Origin: Algibacter pectinivorans
GTDB taxonomy: Bacteria; Bacteroidota; Bacteroidia; Flavobacteriales; Flavobacteriaceae
DNA: 64,000 nt
Direction of reading: 5' to 3'
NCBI RefSeq assembly: GCF_900112595.1
Contig: NZ_FOMI01000002.1
Span: forward strand, 202,690-266,689
Of this stretch, positions 7,302 to 31,499 are shown piece after piece. How positions within the stretch are numbered: position 1 is the stretch's first letter; each line of letters opens with the position of its first letter. The translations under genes and the position numbers were made by a program. The notes under the pieces were generated by a model. That model was given only the letters and a program-made list of their open reading frames with translations, searched no databases and was not told the DNA's origin.

Positions 7302-7392
7302 TTGGGCGTTACCACAAGGGTCGCGCTATACGTTACTAGTTTTGGCTCAAAGCGGCCGCTCGCCAAAAGCTAACCACTACTATCGCTAACGC
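7302..7392 (+). repeat. dispersed TTGGGCG...CTAACGC repeat, copy A
   Basis: The element starts TTGGGCGTTACCACAAGGG and ends ATCGCTAACGC. Its middle holds an inverted repeat (GTTTTGGC / GCCAAAAGC) around the palindrome GCGGCCGC. Two relatives with the same ends lie at 19648-19736 and 34931-35007, all in the same orientation. It is non-coding and sits between ogt and the next promoter region. Confidence 0.75.
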
Positions 7393-7483
7393 ACCTATTT
7401 GCCAACATCAAGTTTTACCAAAAAAACAAAGTATACTTTTTAAAGATTCCCTATATTTAGTACATTAAAAACGTTTTAAAAAC

Positions 7484-24828: not shown

Positions 24829-25797
24829 ATGGCAAGAATACTAACAGGCATACAAAGTACAGGAACACCGCATTTAGGAAACATTTTAGGGGCCATTATG
24901 CCAGCAATTGAAATGGCTAAAAATCCAGAAAATGAGTCGTATTTATTTATTGCAAATATGCATACTTTAACACAAATTAAAGATGCAAAAACCTTACGCG
25001 AAAACACATACTCTACCGCAGCAACGTGGTTAGCATTTGGTTTAGACATAGAAAAAACGGTGTTTTACAGACAAAGCGACATCCCTCAGGTAACCGAACT
25101 GTCTTGGTATTTAAGCTGCTTTTTTCCTTACCAACGCCTAACATTAGCGCACAGTTTTAAGGACAAAGCCGATAGATTAGAGGATGTTAATTCTGGGTTG
25201 TTTACCTACCCAATGCTTATGGCTGCCGATATATTATTATACGATGCCGAAATAATACCTGTTGGAAAAGATCAAGAACAGCATTTAGAAATGACTCGCG
25301 ATGTGGCCTCGCGTTTTCATGCTAAAGTTGGCGAAACCTTTGTTTTACCAAAAGCTTCGGTGCAAGAAAACATTATGCTAATTCCTGGTACTAATGGCGG
25401 AAAAATGAGCAAAAGCCAAAACAATACCATTAATATATTTTTAAACGATAAAAAGCTACGCAAGCAAATTATGTCTATTGAAACCGATAGCACACCGCTT
25501 GAAGATCCTAAAGACTGGAGCACCTGCAACTGTTTTGGTATTTATAAATTATTAGCCAATGAAGCACAAATTGCCGAAATGAAAGCTAATTACGAAAATG
25601 GTGGTTACGGCTACGGCCATGCTAAACAAGCCTTATTTGAGTTGATTGTTGAAACGTTTGCCAAACCTCGCGAGCGCTATAATTATTACATGAATAACTT
25701 AGAGGAAATTGACAAAGCACTTTTAGTTGGTGCCGAAAAAGCCAAATTAATAGCTAATGATGTTTTGGCTAGAGTTCGCGAAAAAGTTGGCTATTAA
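24829..25797 (+). CDS. trpS: tryptophanyl-tRNA synthetase
   Basis: A class I aminoacyl-tRNA synthetase charging tRNA-Trp. The 322-residue protein has the HIGH-type signature as TGTPHLGNILGA (about 11-22) and the KMSKS loop as GGKMSKSQNNTI. The central region carries the tryptophan pocket segments (VFYRQSDIPQ, LYDAEIIPVGKDQEQHLEM). Length is standard for the bacterial enzyme. Its last four bases overlap the convergent yoeB stop. The upstream promoter is among the clearest in the window. Confidence 0.96.
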   Translation: MARILTGIQSTGTPHLGNILGAIMPAIEMAKNPENESYLFIANMHTLTQIKDAKTLRENTYSTAATWLAFGLDIEKTVFYRQSDIPQVTELSWYLSCFFPYQRLTLAHSFKDKADRLEDVNSGLFTYPMLMAADILLYDAEIIPVGKDQEQHLEMTRDVASRFHAKVGETFVLPKASVQENIMLIPGTNGGKMSKSQNNTINIFLNDKKLRKQIMSIETDSTPLEDPKDWSTCNCFGIYKLLANEAQIAEMKANYENGGYGYGHAKQALFELIVETFAKPRERYNYYMNNLEEIDKALLVGAEKAKLIANDVLARVREKVGY

Positions 25798-26060
25798 TAA
25801 TGGTATCGGCATTGAATAATTGTAAGTACCTGCTCCCCTTTATTTCCTGAAACTTTATAGACAAGTCTATGTTCATGTGTTATCCTTCTTGACCAATAGC
25901 CACTTAAATTTTCCTTTAAAGGTTCAGGCGTTCCGATTCCATCAAACGGAGTTCTTTGTGTATTTTTAATCAGTCTTGTTAATTTATTGAATATTTTTCT
26001 ATCTGTACTTTGCCAATAACAAAAATCCTCAAAAGCATTACTCGAGAAAAAAACATTCAT
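25794..26060 (-). CDS. yoeB: YoeB-family toxin (ribosome-dependent mRNA interferase)
   Basis: YoeB toxins cut mRNA in the ribosomal A site. The 88-residue protein shows the family core WSRRITHEHRLVYKV and ends with CRYHY, which supplies the catalytic His-Tyr pair; the upstream Glu and Arg expected for catalysis lie in the RRITHEHR block and earlier helix. It is the second gene of a pair: the antitoxin stop and this ATG overlap (TAATG). It is convergent with trpS, overlapping by 4 bases. It looks intact, so activity is plausible. Confidence 0.92.
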   Translation of the reverse strand: MNVFFSSNAFEDFCYWQSTDRKIFNKLTRLIKNTQRTPFDGIGTPEPLKENLSGYWSRRITHEHRLVYKVSGNKGEQVLTIIQCRYHY

Positions 26061-26311
26061 TAAATATCAACTTTTTTCAATTCATTTTTTTCAACTTCAG
26101 CCAAAGATTCTTCTAATCTTTTACGATTAGCCTCAGTAGCAGTTAAATAATTAGTTTCAATTAAAGAATTATATTCACTAAGAGGCATTATTACAACTGC
26201 CTCATCATTCTCAGAATTTCTTGGTATTAATAAAGTTTCACAAGATTCAGAAACTAAATCTAGAAAATACTTCATTCTATTTCTTAGTGATGTAGATGTT
26301 ATCGTTTTCAT
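26060..26311 (-). CDS. yefM: YefM/Phd-family antitoxin
   Basis: An 83-residue antitoxin that binds the operator through its N-terminal half and neutralises YoeB through its C-terminal half. The start at 26311 gives MKTITSTSLRNRMKYFLDLV, matching the family; 20 more open codons upstream are rejected because they are hydrophobic and overlie the promoter. VIMPLSEYNSLIETNYL is the typical Phd/YefM core and the acidic/Lys-rich tail is the toxin-binding part. The operator lies 41-60 bases upstream of the start. Confidence 0.92.
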   Translation of the reverse strand: MKTITSTSLRNRMKYFLDLVSESCETLLIPRNSENDEAVVIMPLSEYNSLIETNYLTATEANRKRLEESLAEVEKNELKKVDI

Positions 26312-26351
26312 TTTATAAGGTTTTATGTAAAGGGTGCAAAAGATATACCAA

Positions 26352-26371
26352 ATGTACATTATTATGTACAT
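26352..26371. promoter_or_regulatory. yefM-yoeB operator: two ATGTACAT palindromes 12 bp apart
   Basis: ATGTACAT occurs at 26352-26359 and 26364-26371, so the TGTACA cores are centred exactly 12 bp apart. In E. coli the YefM-YoeB operator is known to consist of long and short palindromes with TGTACA cores at that spacing. Function here is inferred from that match. Confidence 0.8.
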
Positions 26372-28671: not shown

Positions 28672-29181
28672 ATGCAAGCAAAAACACCCGAACAATCTAA
28701 AACAACCATGACAGATTTGGTTTTACCCAGTGAAACCAACCCACTAAACAACCTTTTTGGTGGCGAATTATTAGCGCGTATGGATCGTGCGGCTAGTATT
28801 GCTGCGCGTCGTCATTCCAGACGCATTGTAGTAACCGCATCTGTAAACCACGTGGCGTTTAATCGTGCTGTACCTTTAGGAAGCGTTGTAACTGTAGAAG
28901 CTAAAGTATCGCGTGGGTTTAACACCTCTATGGAAGTTTTTATTGATGTTTGGATGGAAGATCGCGAATCTGGAGCCCGAACAAAAGCCAACGAAGCCAT
29001 TTATACCTTTGTGGCTGTCGATGAAACCGGACGCCCAGTAAAAGTACCCCAAGTAAAACCAGAAACCGAACTTGAAATAGAGCGTTTTGAGGCCGCTTTA
29101 CGCCGAAAACAACTTAGTCTATTACTTGCAGGAAAAATAAAGCCTAACGAAGCTACAGAGTTAAAAGCGCTGTTCGATTAG
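28672..29181 (+). CDS. acyl-CoA thioesterase, hotdog fold (YciA/BACH-like)
   Basis: A 169-residue cytosolic thioesterase that hydrolyses acyl-CoA to free acid. The hotdog signature is visible: NPLNNLFGGELLARMDRAAS (catalytic Asp in the MD segment), VVTASVNHVAFNRAVPLGSV, then the core strands VEAKVSRGFNTSMEVFIDVW and ANEAIYTFVAVDETGRP. Chain-length preference cannot be read. TAACTTTG lies upstream as a -7 box. It is the last core gene before the retron-like locus. Confidence 0.88.
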   Translation: MQAKTPEQSKTTMTDLVLPSETNPLNNLFGGELLARMDRAASIAARRHSRRIVVTASVNHVAFNRAVPLGSVVTVEAKVSRGFNTSMEVFIDVWMEDRESGARTKANEAIYTFVAVDETGRPVKVPQVKPETELEIERFEAALRRKQLSLLLAGKIKPNEATELKALFD

Positions 29182-29282
29182 CGTTTTTTTCTGCTATTAG
29201 TAATTTAGATATATTTAAAGCATGGGTTTTGTGTATGAAACGAGGCGTATAAAAAAGCGCTAACTTTTCAGATTAAACACGA

Positions 29283-29302
29283 GCCAAATTTAAAAATTTG
29301 GC
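29283..29302. repeat. perfect hairpin GCCAAATTT-AA-AAATTTGGC downstream of the retron RT
   Basis: A 9-bp perfect stem within the 181-base gap between the thioesterase and the reverse transcriptase genes. There is no T run, so it is not a standard terminator. It could be an mRNA 3' end or the edge of an inserted cassette. Confidence 0.6.
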
Positions 29303-29362
29303 AGTCTGCACAAACACACAAAAACCTTTCGAAAAGCCTGTAATAGCAATATTTTATTTACA

Positions 29363-30211
29363 TCATTGGCAACTGACTTTTTTGCCGTAATTAGCTCTGT
29401 CAACCTTTTCTTTATACCTTTTTAGTCCAGCAATTTGTTCCGCTGTTTTATTATTAGTAGATTCCAATTTTTCTACAAATGATTTAGGTAATTTCAAATG
29501 ATTATTCATTGGATGAAGTCCTGTAATATTTGGATTTCTAGAGTAATTAGTTTTCTTGTGGCTAATTTTATAATCGTTCGTGATAATTTCTAAAATCTTT
29601 GGAATTTTATTCTTAAAATCTTTTGCAGAGGAAAAAGTCATATCATCAACGAATGAAGTAAAAGTCGCATTGTTTTCTTTTGCAAATTCTTGTAATATAT
29701 CTCCAGTTTTGATGAAAACTAAATTAGCCAAAGTTGAAGAAGTTGGTGCTCCTTGTGGAATTCTGCCTTTATAGGTTGTTAACTTTGTTAGAAGGCTTGA
29801 AACTTCTGGCGAAAACCCTTGACTTACGAACATTTTGAAAACAGATTTGTTCGTTATAGATGGAAAAAAATCTTTTAAATCGGTTGTGAATTTATATCTT
29901 TTTCCCTGGTGTTGCTTAGCGTTTGCGACGTTATCTTTCCCTTTTACAGCACCAAACGCATAACTTGGCATTTCAATTTGGCTCAGAATGTTTCTGTGTA
30001 TTCTAGTCTGAATTATTTTCAGTCTTTTTGTACTTGGATTTATTACCCTTTTTTTAGGCTCTCCTTTTGCATCCAATTTTGGTTTATCAAACTTATCTTT
30101 TTTAATTTCAATTTTCTCCCTGTAAAAATTGTCGATATTATTGAGAATTGAATTTATCTCTTTGATATCCACTTTTAAAGTATAAGCTAAATGTTTTGGT
30201 GTGTTAATCAT
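29363..30211 (-). CDS. retron-type reverse transcriptase
   Basis: A 282-residue reverse transcriptase. Retron hallmarks are present: the NAxxH motif as NAKQH (97-101) in GKDNVANAKQHQGKRYKF, palm motif A DLKDFFPSI (111-119), IPQGAPTSSTLANLV (151-165), the catalytic box FVDD (187-190; YxDD with Phe for Tyr) and a VTG-like ITGL (229-232). The C-terminus is short for the family but ends in a basic region. It is the last gene of an operon: its ATG overlaps the TGA of the XRE gene. Retron RTs make msDNA and act in phage defence. A diversity-generating or group II origin is unlikely given NAKQH and ITGL. Confidence 0.9.
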   Translation of the reverse strand: MINTPKHLAYTLKVDIKEINSILNNIDNFYREKIEIKKDKFDKPKLDAKGEPKKRVINPSTKRLKIIQTRIHRNILSQIEMPSYAFGAVKGKDNVANAKQHQGKRYKFTTDLKDFFPSITNKSVFKMFVSQGFSPEVSSLLTKLTTYKGRIPQGAPTSSTLANLVFIKTGDILQEFAKENNATFTSFVDDMTFSSAKDFKNKIPKILEIITNDYKISHKKTNYSRNPNITGLHPMNNHLKLPKSFVEKLESTNNKTAEQIAGLKRYKEKVDRANYGKKVSCQ

Positions 30212-30501
30212 TGAGTAGTAAAAAATTGATTTATCAATGATTTTACAGAAGGTGCAATTATATTGAAAGCATCTTCTTTTTCCGGACTAATATCATCACT
30301 ATCTATTGATAGGAAAAATAGAATAGGCAAAGGTGTTTCTAATTTATTCGAAATCGTTTTTAAAGTCGAAAGGTTCGGTTCCTTGTTGTTATTCTCAATC
30401 TGTGATAAATAAGCTTGAGTAATATCGCAGAGTTCCGCAAATTGGTTTTGTTTTAAACCTTTTTGTTTTCTAATTGATTTTATTGCTAATCCTAAATCCA
30501 T
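30208..30501 (-). CDS. XRE (Cro/CI) family DNA-binding protein of the retron operon
   Basis: A 97-residue protein with a helix-turn-helix at about 5-60 (IRKQKGLKQNQFAELCDITQ, AYLSQIENNNKEPNLSTLK). The C-terminal ~35 residues (ISPEKEDAFNIIAPSVKSLI) do not match a domain I know and may dimerise or bind the RT or msDNA. It overlaps the RT start by four bases (ATGA), implying coupled translation. It may repress the operon through the palindrome at 31202-31216, or be the retron accessory protein itself, as in retron types that carry a small HTH protein. Confidence 0.88.
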   Translation of the reverse strand: MDLGLAIKSIRKQKGLKQNQFAELCDITQAYLSQIENNNKEPNLSTLKTISNKLETPLPILFFLSIDSDDISPEKEDAFNIIAPSVKSLINQFFTTQ

Positions 30502-30537
30502 ATGTTATGTATTTGAAAAAATTTATGGGGTGTCAGG

Positions 30538-30783
30538 TCAGAAAATGTTCGGGAAATCATCAAAACTGGTAATCACTCTGTTGAGTAAATCAATTCCTTT
30601 GAAAACTAAACTCCAATCTATAGGCTTATTATCGCTTTCTTTTTTAGAGTTTTCTAAATATCTAATTGCATTAGATAAATGAACTTTTTCTTCGTCTGAG
30701 AATGAACAACGGTTCTCAGAAAGGATAGTTCTTATACCAAGTATAAGACCATCAACGTGTTGATAATTGTGCTTTTTACGCAT
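30538..30783 (-). CDS. unrecognised 81-residue protein, first gene of the retron operon
   Basis: Start ATG at 30783 gives MRKKHNYQHVDGLILGIRTI; an in-frame TTG at 30810 would add nine residues. The sequence looks helical and charged (FSDEEKVHLSNAIRYLENSK, then VFKGIDLLNRVITSFDDFPN). No domain, signal peptide or membrane helix is visible. It is 36 bases upstream of the XRE gene, on the same strand, directly behind the candidate msr-msd RNA. It is a candidate retron accessory or effector, but no function can be assigned. Confidence 0.7.
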   Translation of the reverse strand: MRKKHNYQHVDGLILGIRTILSENRCSFSDEEKVHLSNAIRYLENSKKESDNKPIDWSLVFKGIDLLNRVITSFDDFPNIF

Positions 30784-30839
30784 ATCTTTTATGTATTTAA
30801 TTAAAGGCAATATCGCCTTGCTACATTTGCAATACGCTT

Positions 30840-31149
30840 GTAATTAAATCCAATATGCGTTGTTCACATTATCACCCCAAAATTATTCCTTGCTACTTAT
30901 AATAAATGCGTCATAATGACTTTTTAGCAAGTTATCAGTTTTATTCATTTCAAGTTGACTTAAAGCGTTTTTAGGGGTTTTCCTAAATGCATCTTTACAG
31001 CTTTCCTTGTTGAATGACTTCGAGTTTTCAGCGTTTGCTTAAACCGAGTTTCAACGTCGTTCTCTTTATAGAGCGCTACGTGTCGTCGCCAATAGAACCA
31101 TAATTGGTTGTGTAACTTAATACACTTTAGTAGTTTGGATATTAATTAC
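30840..31149 (-). ncRNA. candidate retron msr-msd RNA
   Basis: The segment is bounded by complementary arms: a1 GTAATTAATATCCAA (31135-31149, minus) and a2 TTGGATTTAATTAC (30840-30853, minus), 14 pairs with one bulged base. Just inside a1 come three consecutive hairpins: GTGTA/TACAC (31110-31125), CCAAT/ATTGG with a 9-nt loop (31089-31107), and ACGT..CTCT/AGAG..ACGT (31054-31081). A strong promoter lies ~37 bases before a1 and the RT operon follows, the usual retron order. The branching G and msd stem are not identified. Two overlapping frames (30960-31145 and 30883-31038) lack stops, so a decayed gene is the alternative. Confidence 0.5.
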
Positions 31150-31185
31150 TACAATTTTCAATACTCTTTCAAAGAACTTAGGATG

Positions 31186-31216
31186 CAAAGATAAAAGTTA
31201 TTTTGGATTCTCCAAA
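31186..31216 (-). promoter_or_regulatory. retron operon promoter with overlapping palindrome
   Basis: On the minus strand TTG (31213-31215), 19-base spacer, TATCTTTG (31186-31193): a full Bacteroidota consensus. The palindrome TTTGGATTCTCCAAA (31202-31216) covers the -33 element and could be the operator of the XRE protein. Confidence 0.65.
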
Positions 31217-31472
31217 GAAAATCGTAAAAAATATTACTGTGAGTATATAAAAAGTATTAAATAATATTCTTTAGGAAATAAAAAGTTGGTGATTTATTAC
31301 AATTTTCAGCTTGTGTACAACACGTTATACAACAACCTCTATGTTTTATTTCACAAAAAAACACCGTTAATTAACGCCTTTTAAATGTGGAGTTTTATGT
31401 CACGTAAATGTTTTACTAAAAATCCTAATAGCTAAGGCGTTTTAAATAATAGGTGTAGCTTTTAATCGTGAG
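31217..31472. other. AT-rich gap upstream of the retron promoter, no gene seen
   Basis: No convincing frame on either strand. It contains TTGTGTACAACACGTTATAC (31311-31330), a small CGTT/AACG hairpin near 31364-31375 followed on the minus strand by a T run that may weakly terminate the envC operon, and nothing else I can name. Confidence 0.5.
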
Positions 31473-31492
31473 ATTCCTGCTTTCGCAGGAAT
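31473..31492. repeat. 20-nt ATTCCTGC hairpin, copy 1
   Basis: In transcript sense ATTCCTGC-GAAA-GCAGGAAT, 7 bases after the EnvC-like gene stop. One of five copies in the window placed at gene 3' ends. Confidence 0.85.
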
Positions 31493-31499
31493 GTGTGAG

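Follow-up and report, generated by a model that had tools for sequence, protein, structure and literature searches.

A type VI retron locus in Algibacter pectinivorans with coevolving RNA arms and a locus-specific repeat shared by the probable msd and the small-protein leader

PADLOC describes retrons of type VI through models of their proteins: a reverse transcriptase (RT) and two accessory proteins, an HTH protein and a small protein (SP). A recent preprint is said to deal with this type. At the level of structure, a comparison is offered by retron Ec86 (Eco1), the RT of which is the best solved relative of the RT reported here (PDB match, 2e-26); its RNA likewise has a1 and a2 arms with hairpins after a1, and its effector is a nucleoside deoxyribosyltransferase-like protein. 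A looser parallel is offered by type I toxin-antitoxin systems, in which the antisense molecule is an RNA. Within the literature, phrases on type VI retrons occur in PMC8541194 and PMC13249269, and the passages of PMC12548924 and PMC8934634 available to us do not describe them. At the level of search listings, none of three leader features reported below (a repeat pair, a palindrome and a start motif) was found described, and we assert no novelty for any of them.

We analyzed a 64,000-nt stretch of A. pectinivorans contig NZ_FOMI01000002.1 (hereafter, the window), in which a retron locus occupies positions 31178..29363 of the minus strand in the order ~300-nt structured RNA, SP, XRE-type HTH protein and RT. 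SP (30538..30783, minus strand) has 81 aa counted from its ATG, with the reading frame open to a TTG at 30810, and matched the PADLOC model SP_VI (4.5e-29) while a Pfam profile search returned no match for it. The HTH protein (30208..30501, minus strand; 97 aa) matched HTH_VI (1.4e-30) and Pfam HTH_3 (2e-15), and the RT (29363..30211, minus strand; 282 aa) matched RT_VI (1.2e-76; next best RT_III-A, 1.3e-54) and Pfam RVT_1 (1.1e-13). Because the RT and both accessory proteins match type VI models, the operon is a type VI retron in PADLOC's sense, carrying a small protein and an HTH protein instead of the Ec86 effector. Judged by these profiles, it is a new member of an already known type and likely an anti-phage system. 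The PADLOC models cover the proteins; the start motif, palindrome and repeat pair come from the present analysis. No Rfam family was found at the RNA locus at gathering or permissive thresholds, the best match being a chance hit to snoR28 (E = 1.8).

The retron block is flanked by a thioesterase gene on one side and an EnvC-like gene on the other. The latter was present in nine genomes of the same genus, none of which had an RT match, and the distance from the thioesterase end to the EnvC-like gene was 77-494 bp in seven of the nine compared to ~2.3 kb in the window; one further locus (L067) aligned on the EnvC side only. A 97% identical genome (G004) has two other genes between its equivalents of positions 29181 and 31356. 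Since genomes of the genus lack the block and G004 carries other genes in its place, the retron is exchangeable cargo spanning roughly 29182-31355. A palindromic-looking, REP-like repeat lies beside the end of the EnvC-like gene (31459-31496) and has two matches near gene ends in the G004 locus (L068). Elsewhere in the window we noted a toxin-antitoxin pair of the YefM-YoeB type, flanked by trpS and dprA (25794-26371), at the place of which L068 has no ORF of at least 100 aa, and a Flavo-1 RNA (RF01705) on the minus strand at 7315-7400, scoring 44.1 bits against a gathering score of 42.

For comparison, 23 loci supplied leaders: the window, L012-L014, four found by an SP_VI search of family genomes (L017-L020; 8 of 397 matched), seven by the same search at phylum level (L024-L030; 11 of 395), four by an SP alignment search of order genomes (L042-L045; 7 of 395), three on plasmids (L032-L034) and one found later by an RNA model (L073); the SP search counts include the A. 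pectinivorans genome itself, genomes met before and false matches. Four weak SP matches (L021, L022, L023 and L031) were dropped because they had neither an RT nor the start motif GTTCTTTGA, and L015 because it offered an RT fragment at a contig start. RT matches were found in 192 plasmid and 44 phage records, of which the best 20 of each were examined and three plasmids followed; viral contigs searched by RT yielded no confirmed relative, and a DNA search with leader plus SP found nothing in plasmids or phages. In 22 of the 23 loci the leader is intact at its 5' part, where the remaining one (L033) has an insertion sequence. Near-copies L012, L013 and L018 were kept outside the permutation tests, and L030 was also kept outside the representative set.

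SP, HTH and RT genes follow one another in that order in the loci read. The exceptions are L032 and L073, both without an HTH gene, where the small ORF is separated from the RT by 25 and 31 nt, respectively. These two loci (L032:2261-3358; L073, minus strand, 1768-2848 of the reversed locus) are otherwise type VI-like and possibly represent a sub-type. Their small proteins are strongly basic (net charge +15 and +13, compared to 0 in the window) and matched no PADLOC model at E = 0.1. The L033 locus (647-1922) is a Riemerella plasmid retron in which IS4351 adjoins the leader, a floR gene lying on the far side of the element.

The preliminary description of this region had placed a strong promoter just before the RNA, and a promoter box is indeed present there. 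Just upstream of the RNA on the minus strand is TATCTTTG (31193-31186), which we take to be a -7 box of the Bacteroidota type, and 20 of 21 loci, all but L028, have a box of the form TA..[TC]T[TC][GA] (TAnnTTTG-like) that begins 12-19 nt ahead of the leader motif. The leader motif itself, GTTCTTTGA (31169..31177, minus strand), stands at the predicted RNA start and was exact in 20 of 22 intact leaders, with L013 and L028 one base off. The corresponding 11-mer, GTTCTTTGAAA, resembles the boxA of Escherichia coli rRNA operons and is not enriched in the A. pectinivorans genome (four occurrences compared to eight of the reversed word). The A. pectinivorans assembly gave no 16S match, and the comparison with host rRNA was made in four relatives, whose rRNA leaders have a GTTCAT motif soon after the promoters. 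None of ten 16S leaders from these relatives contained GTTCTTTGA; the six rRNA leaders inspected read GTTCATTGG, GTTCATTAA, GTTCATAAA or GTTCATTGA downstream of the promoter, a difference of one to three bases. Identity of the start motif with the hosts' rRNA boxA was therefore not borne out letter for letter, and 'boxA-like' denotes a loose resemblance. The motif may act in antitermination, as a putative NusB/NusE binding site.

Further upstream is a candidate HTH operator, ACTCACAGT (31236..31244, minus strand), built on the palindrome ACTNNNAGT. Of 21 leaders, 9 have an exact copy of ACTNNNAGT in the 110 nt preceding them (three of the nine, the window, L012 and L013, being near-copies), compared to 0.49 expected and a maximum of 3 in 300 resamples. 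Measured from the start of the leader, these copies sit at -31 to -36 or -63 to -70. When one mismatch was allowed, sites were found at 18 of 21 leaders compared to 9.4 expected. L032 and L073, the pair of loci that lack an HTH gene, had no such site even with one mismatch, which lends weak support, from two loci, to the palindrome as the HTH site. The HTH protein thus perhaps binds the palindrome and controls its own promoter.

The RNA had been proposed as an msr-msd RNA on the basis of a 14-bp inverted repeat with one bulge spanning ~310 nt, and the two arms do pair in this way on the minus strand: a1 is GTAATTAATATCCAA (31149-31135) and a2 is TTGGATTTAATTAC (30853-30840). In the window alone, the helix is unremarkable for an AT-rich stretch. 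Its duplex energy was -13.2 kcal/mol, and 148 of 1,000 dinucleotide shuffles were as good for one choice of windows (23 of 300 for slightly wider ones); the AT-rich 1 kb around the locus holds 82 inverted-repeat pairs. The case for the a1/a2 helix rests on the relatives. Covariation among homologues, a check set beforehand, came out in its favor: across 18 loci, own a1/a2 duplexes averaged -22.0 kcal/mol compared to -16.0 for arms from mismatched loci (0 of 100,000 permutations), and the preference persisted after double centering for composition (0 of 50,000; 17 loci). This signal lies in the sum, with the own a2 ranking first for only 6 of 18 a1 arms. In per-locus shuffles, 18 of 19 duplexes fell below their own shuffle mean, at most 15 of 300 shuffles were as good in only 6 of 19 loci, and L044 showed no signal (188 of 300). 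L033 is absent from these tests because IS4351 occupies the place of the 5' part of its leader.

Individual changes can be followed in the close family, in which ATCCAA or ATTCAA in a1 is matched by TTGGAT or TTGAAT in a2. Relative to the window, L014 has a C-to-T change in a1 accompanied by a G-to-A change in a2, giving an A-U pair, with L013 as the G-U intermediate.

Hairpins follow a1 directly and in close order, as the preliminary description had it. Hairpin 1 (H1; GTGTA-TTAAGT-TACAC, 31125-31110, minus strand), hairpin 2 (H2; AACCA-ATTA-TGGTT, 31109-31096, minus strand) and a third, CTCT-ATAA-AGAG, are all present in the minimum-energy fold. One detail of that description did not hold, namely a 9-nt loop like that of the Ec86 msr: the fold contains none, the loops of H1 and H2 being 6 and 4 nt, while the arms, hairpins and promoter box were right in substance. 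Over nine loci, all 45 cells of H1 were paired and two of its five pairs changed on both sides; the covariation score was reached by 2 of 500 shuffles, and two other measures were modest (changed-pair count, 22 of 500; pair types, 213 of 500). The first G of H1 and the A preceding it were invariant in 9 of 9 loci, making G31125 a candidate branching G by its position. H2, with hand-picked arms, was a tight hairpin in 14 of 15 loci listed despite varying arms (for example AACC/GGTT, AATGGC/GCCATT and GGTT/AACC), a count in which L017 requires shorter arms and L045 is represented by a 3-bp match at a later place. The z score of the whole fold against shuffles was -2.15 for the minus strand and -3.06 for the plus strand, so folding energy gives no preference for the RNA strand. 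Paired a1/a2 arms and msr hairpins beside an RT are thus supported by the comparison of loci, whereas the window by itself does not establish them.

A covariance model of the 5' module (R1), built from nine loci and containing no protein information, was then applied to genomes. Among 335 class genomes it gave four matches at E up to 0.1, three of them known and one new. The new match (L073 in genome G494; E = 0.009) is immediately followed by a basic small ORF of 70 aa and a retron RT of 278 aa, in a genome where the earlier SP_VI profile and SP alignment searches had found nothing. Four matches were also obtained among 351 order genomes: the A. pectinivorans locus, G494, a training locus (L045 in G862) and a false match attributed to chance (L075 in G1025; E = 0.047). 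In four non-training loci (L027, L042, L043 and L032), R1 matches began exactly at the leader start (E = 0.029-0.44). The model reported nothing for L017, L018, L019, L025, L028, L034, L044 or the truncated L033, and likewise nothing for nine other retron-RT loci (L002-L010). The a1/a2 covariation, the H1 pairs, the type VI operon and the recovery of a new retron operon by R1 together support the retron reading of the preliminary description, and we put at about 0.88 the probability that the window RNA is the msr-msd RNA of a type VI retron, its control step being a separate matter.

The 3' part of the RNA contains a direct repeat. In the window, GTAGCAAGG occurs in the probable msd before a2 (copy 1; 30888..30896, minus strand) and again in the SP leader, between a2 and the SP start (copy 2; 30816..30824, minus strand). 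Counted from the SP ATG, copy 1 sits at -104 to -133 and copy 2 at -40 to -69 in 16 of 20 loci; no clear pair was seen in L019, L026, L028 or L034. The letters vary between loci and agree within each: GTAGCAAGG in the window, AATGGCAAGG in L014, TACGGCAGGA in L024, AGGAGCAGGG in L017, AGGCGGGC in L029 and L030, TTTTAGGCACGTG in L032 and TGTAACAGG in L073. Match scores averaged 8.57 for own pairs compared to 6.55 for cross pairs over 20 loci, and 8.27 compared to 6.38 over 15 representatives (0 of 100,000 permutations each). As with the arms, it is the sum that carries the signal: since many loci share a GCAGG-like core, the own copy 2 ranked first for 6 of 20 copies 1.

Controls were flat for three windows further upstream (14,209, 2,534 and 8,573 of 20,000) and for the SP coding start (14,536 of 20,000). 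The windows of the repeat test were chosen after the pattern had been seen, and L073, found later, carries its own variant in both places. A first test with wider windows was weaker (390 of 100,000), narrower ones gave 0 of 200,000 and windows placed around the same spots gave 0 of 100,000. In the narrower test, a shift by +40 is no control because the shifted window overlaps copy 2. For L073, windows that cut through the copies gave a match of 6 nt and wider windows 9. No conserved msd stem was resolved among the loci, and the upstream RNA body held no coevolving partner of copy 1 (8,279 of 50,000); a shared RNA partner of both copies inside the leader body was unsupported (8,279 and 4,077 of 50,000). 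After copy 2 comes a small hairpin with hand-picked arms, GGCGATATTGCC (30806..30817, minus strand), the 3' arm of which lies 24-41 nt before the SP ATG in all 17 loci listed (L019, L028 and L034 being left out of this listing), followed by a1', TTTAATTAAAT (30795..30805, minus strand), a segment that can pair with a2 instead of a1.

From this arrangement we infer the following order of events. A single transcript would probably run from near 31180 through RNA, SP, HTH and RT; pairing of a1 with a2 would fold the RNA and present the G next to H1 to the RT for priming; and the RT would copy upstream from a2 through copy 1, which in window coordinates would lie 35-43 nt into the template. Because an RT starting at a2 passes copy 1, the msDNA would carry a strand matching copy 2. 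This complement of copy 1 could therefore pair with copy 2 in the SP leader and keep SP, the likely effector, silenced for as long as no phage interferes with the msDNA or the RT, with the HTH protein as the likely regulator of its own promoter. Among the forms of control weighed here, we favor as most likely a role of msDNA as antisense DNA against the SP message, tentatively and at somewhat less than even odds. More tentative still is a fuller version, in which a type VI retron would resemble a type I toxin-antitoxin system, with the msDNA acting as antisense through the coevolving repeat, the boxA-like start keeping the leader transcribed and the HTH protein setting the level. The likeness would consist in a small effector gene whose structured leader could be blocked by antisense pairing, and the difference in the antitoxin being reverse-transcribed DNA rather than RNA.

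The main rival to antisense control by msDNA holds that both repeat copies are binding sites on the RNA for one protein (RT, HTH or SP), the copies changing together because the preference of the protein changes. The GCAGG-like core in many loci and the near-constant spacing of the copies fit such sites, yet the repeats reach 13 nt with locus-specific letters in L032, and the RTs of the window and L014 are 81% identical while the letters differ in both copies; we regard this explanation as doubtful. Another reading treats the leader mainly as a message switch in which a2 pairs either with a1, giving the retron fold, or with a1' just ahead of the SP start, the repeats serving only for tuning. 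It draws on a preference of the a2 region for the last 50 nt of its own leader (own, -15.7; cross, -11.4; 0 of 50,000 permutations; 17 loci) and on a2/a1' duplexes that are clear in L017, L025 and L032 and visible by eye in L033. That test includes local hairpins, however, its best duplex is one other than a2/a1' in the window and in several other loci, and a1' is not evident by eye in L029, L030, L045 or L020, so that we consider a switch of this kind unlikely.

An alternative of another order concerns not the control step but the RNA itself, which might be only a structured 5' leader of the operon, with the RT template elsewhere. Such a view would fit the lack of significance of the a1/a2 helix when the window is taken by itself, and the msDNA of this locus is a prediction, but the order a1, hairpins, body and a2 upstream of a retron RT, the coevolution among loci and the recovery of a retron locus by R1 make it very improbable. 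Reading the RNA as the msr-msd and its msDNA as antisense on SP, the repeat pair joins the probable reverse-transcribed segment to the leader of the effector and keeps pace with itself from locus to locus, which predicts base-pairing regulation by a DNA copy. The start motif and palindrome, if confirmed, would explain how a long untranslated RNA is made and controlled, and the repeat pair addresses the question of how effectors are controlled in retrons outside the few types that have been studied.
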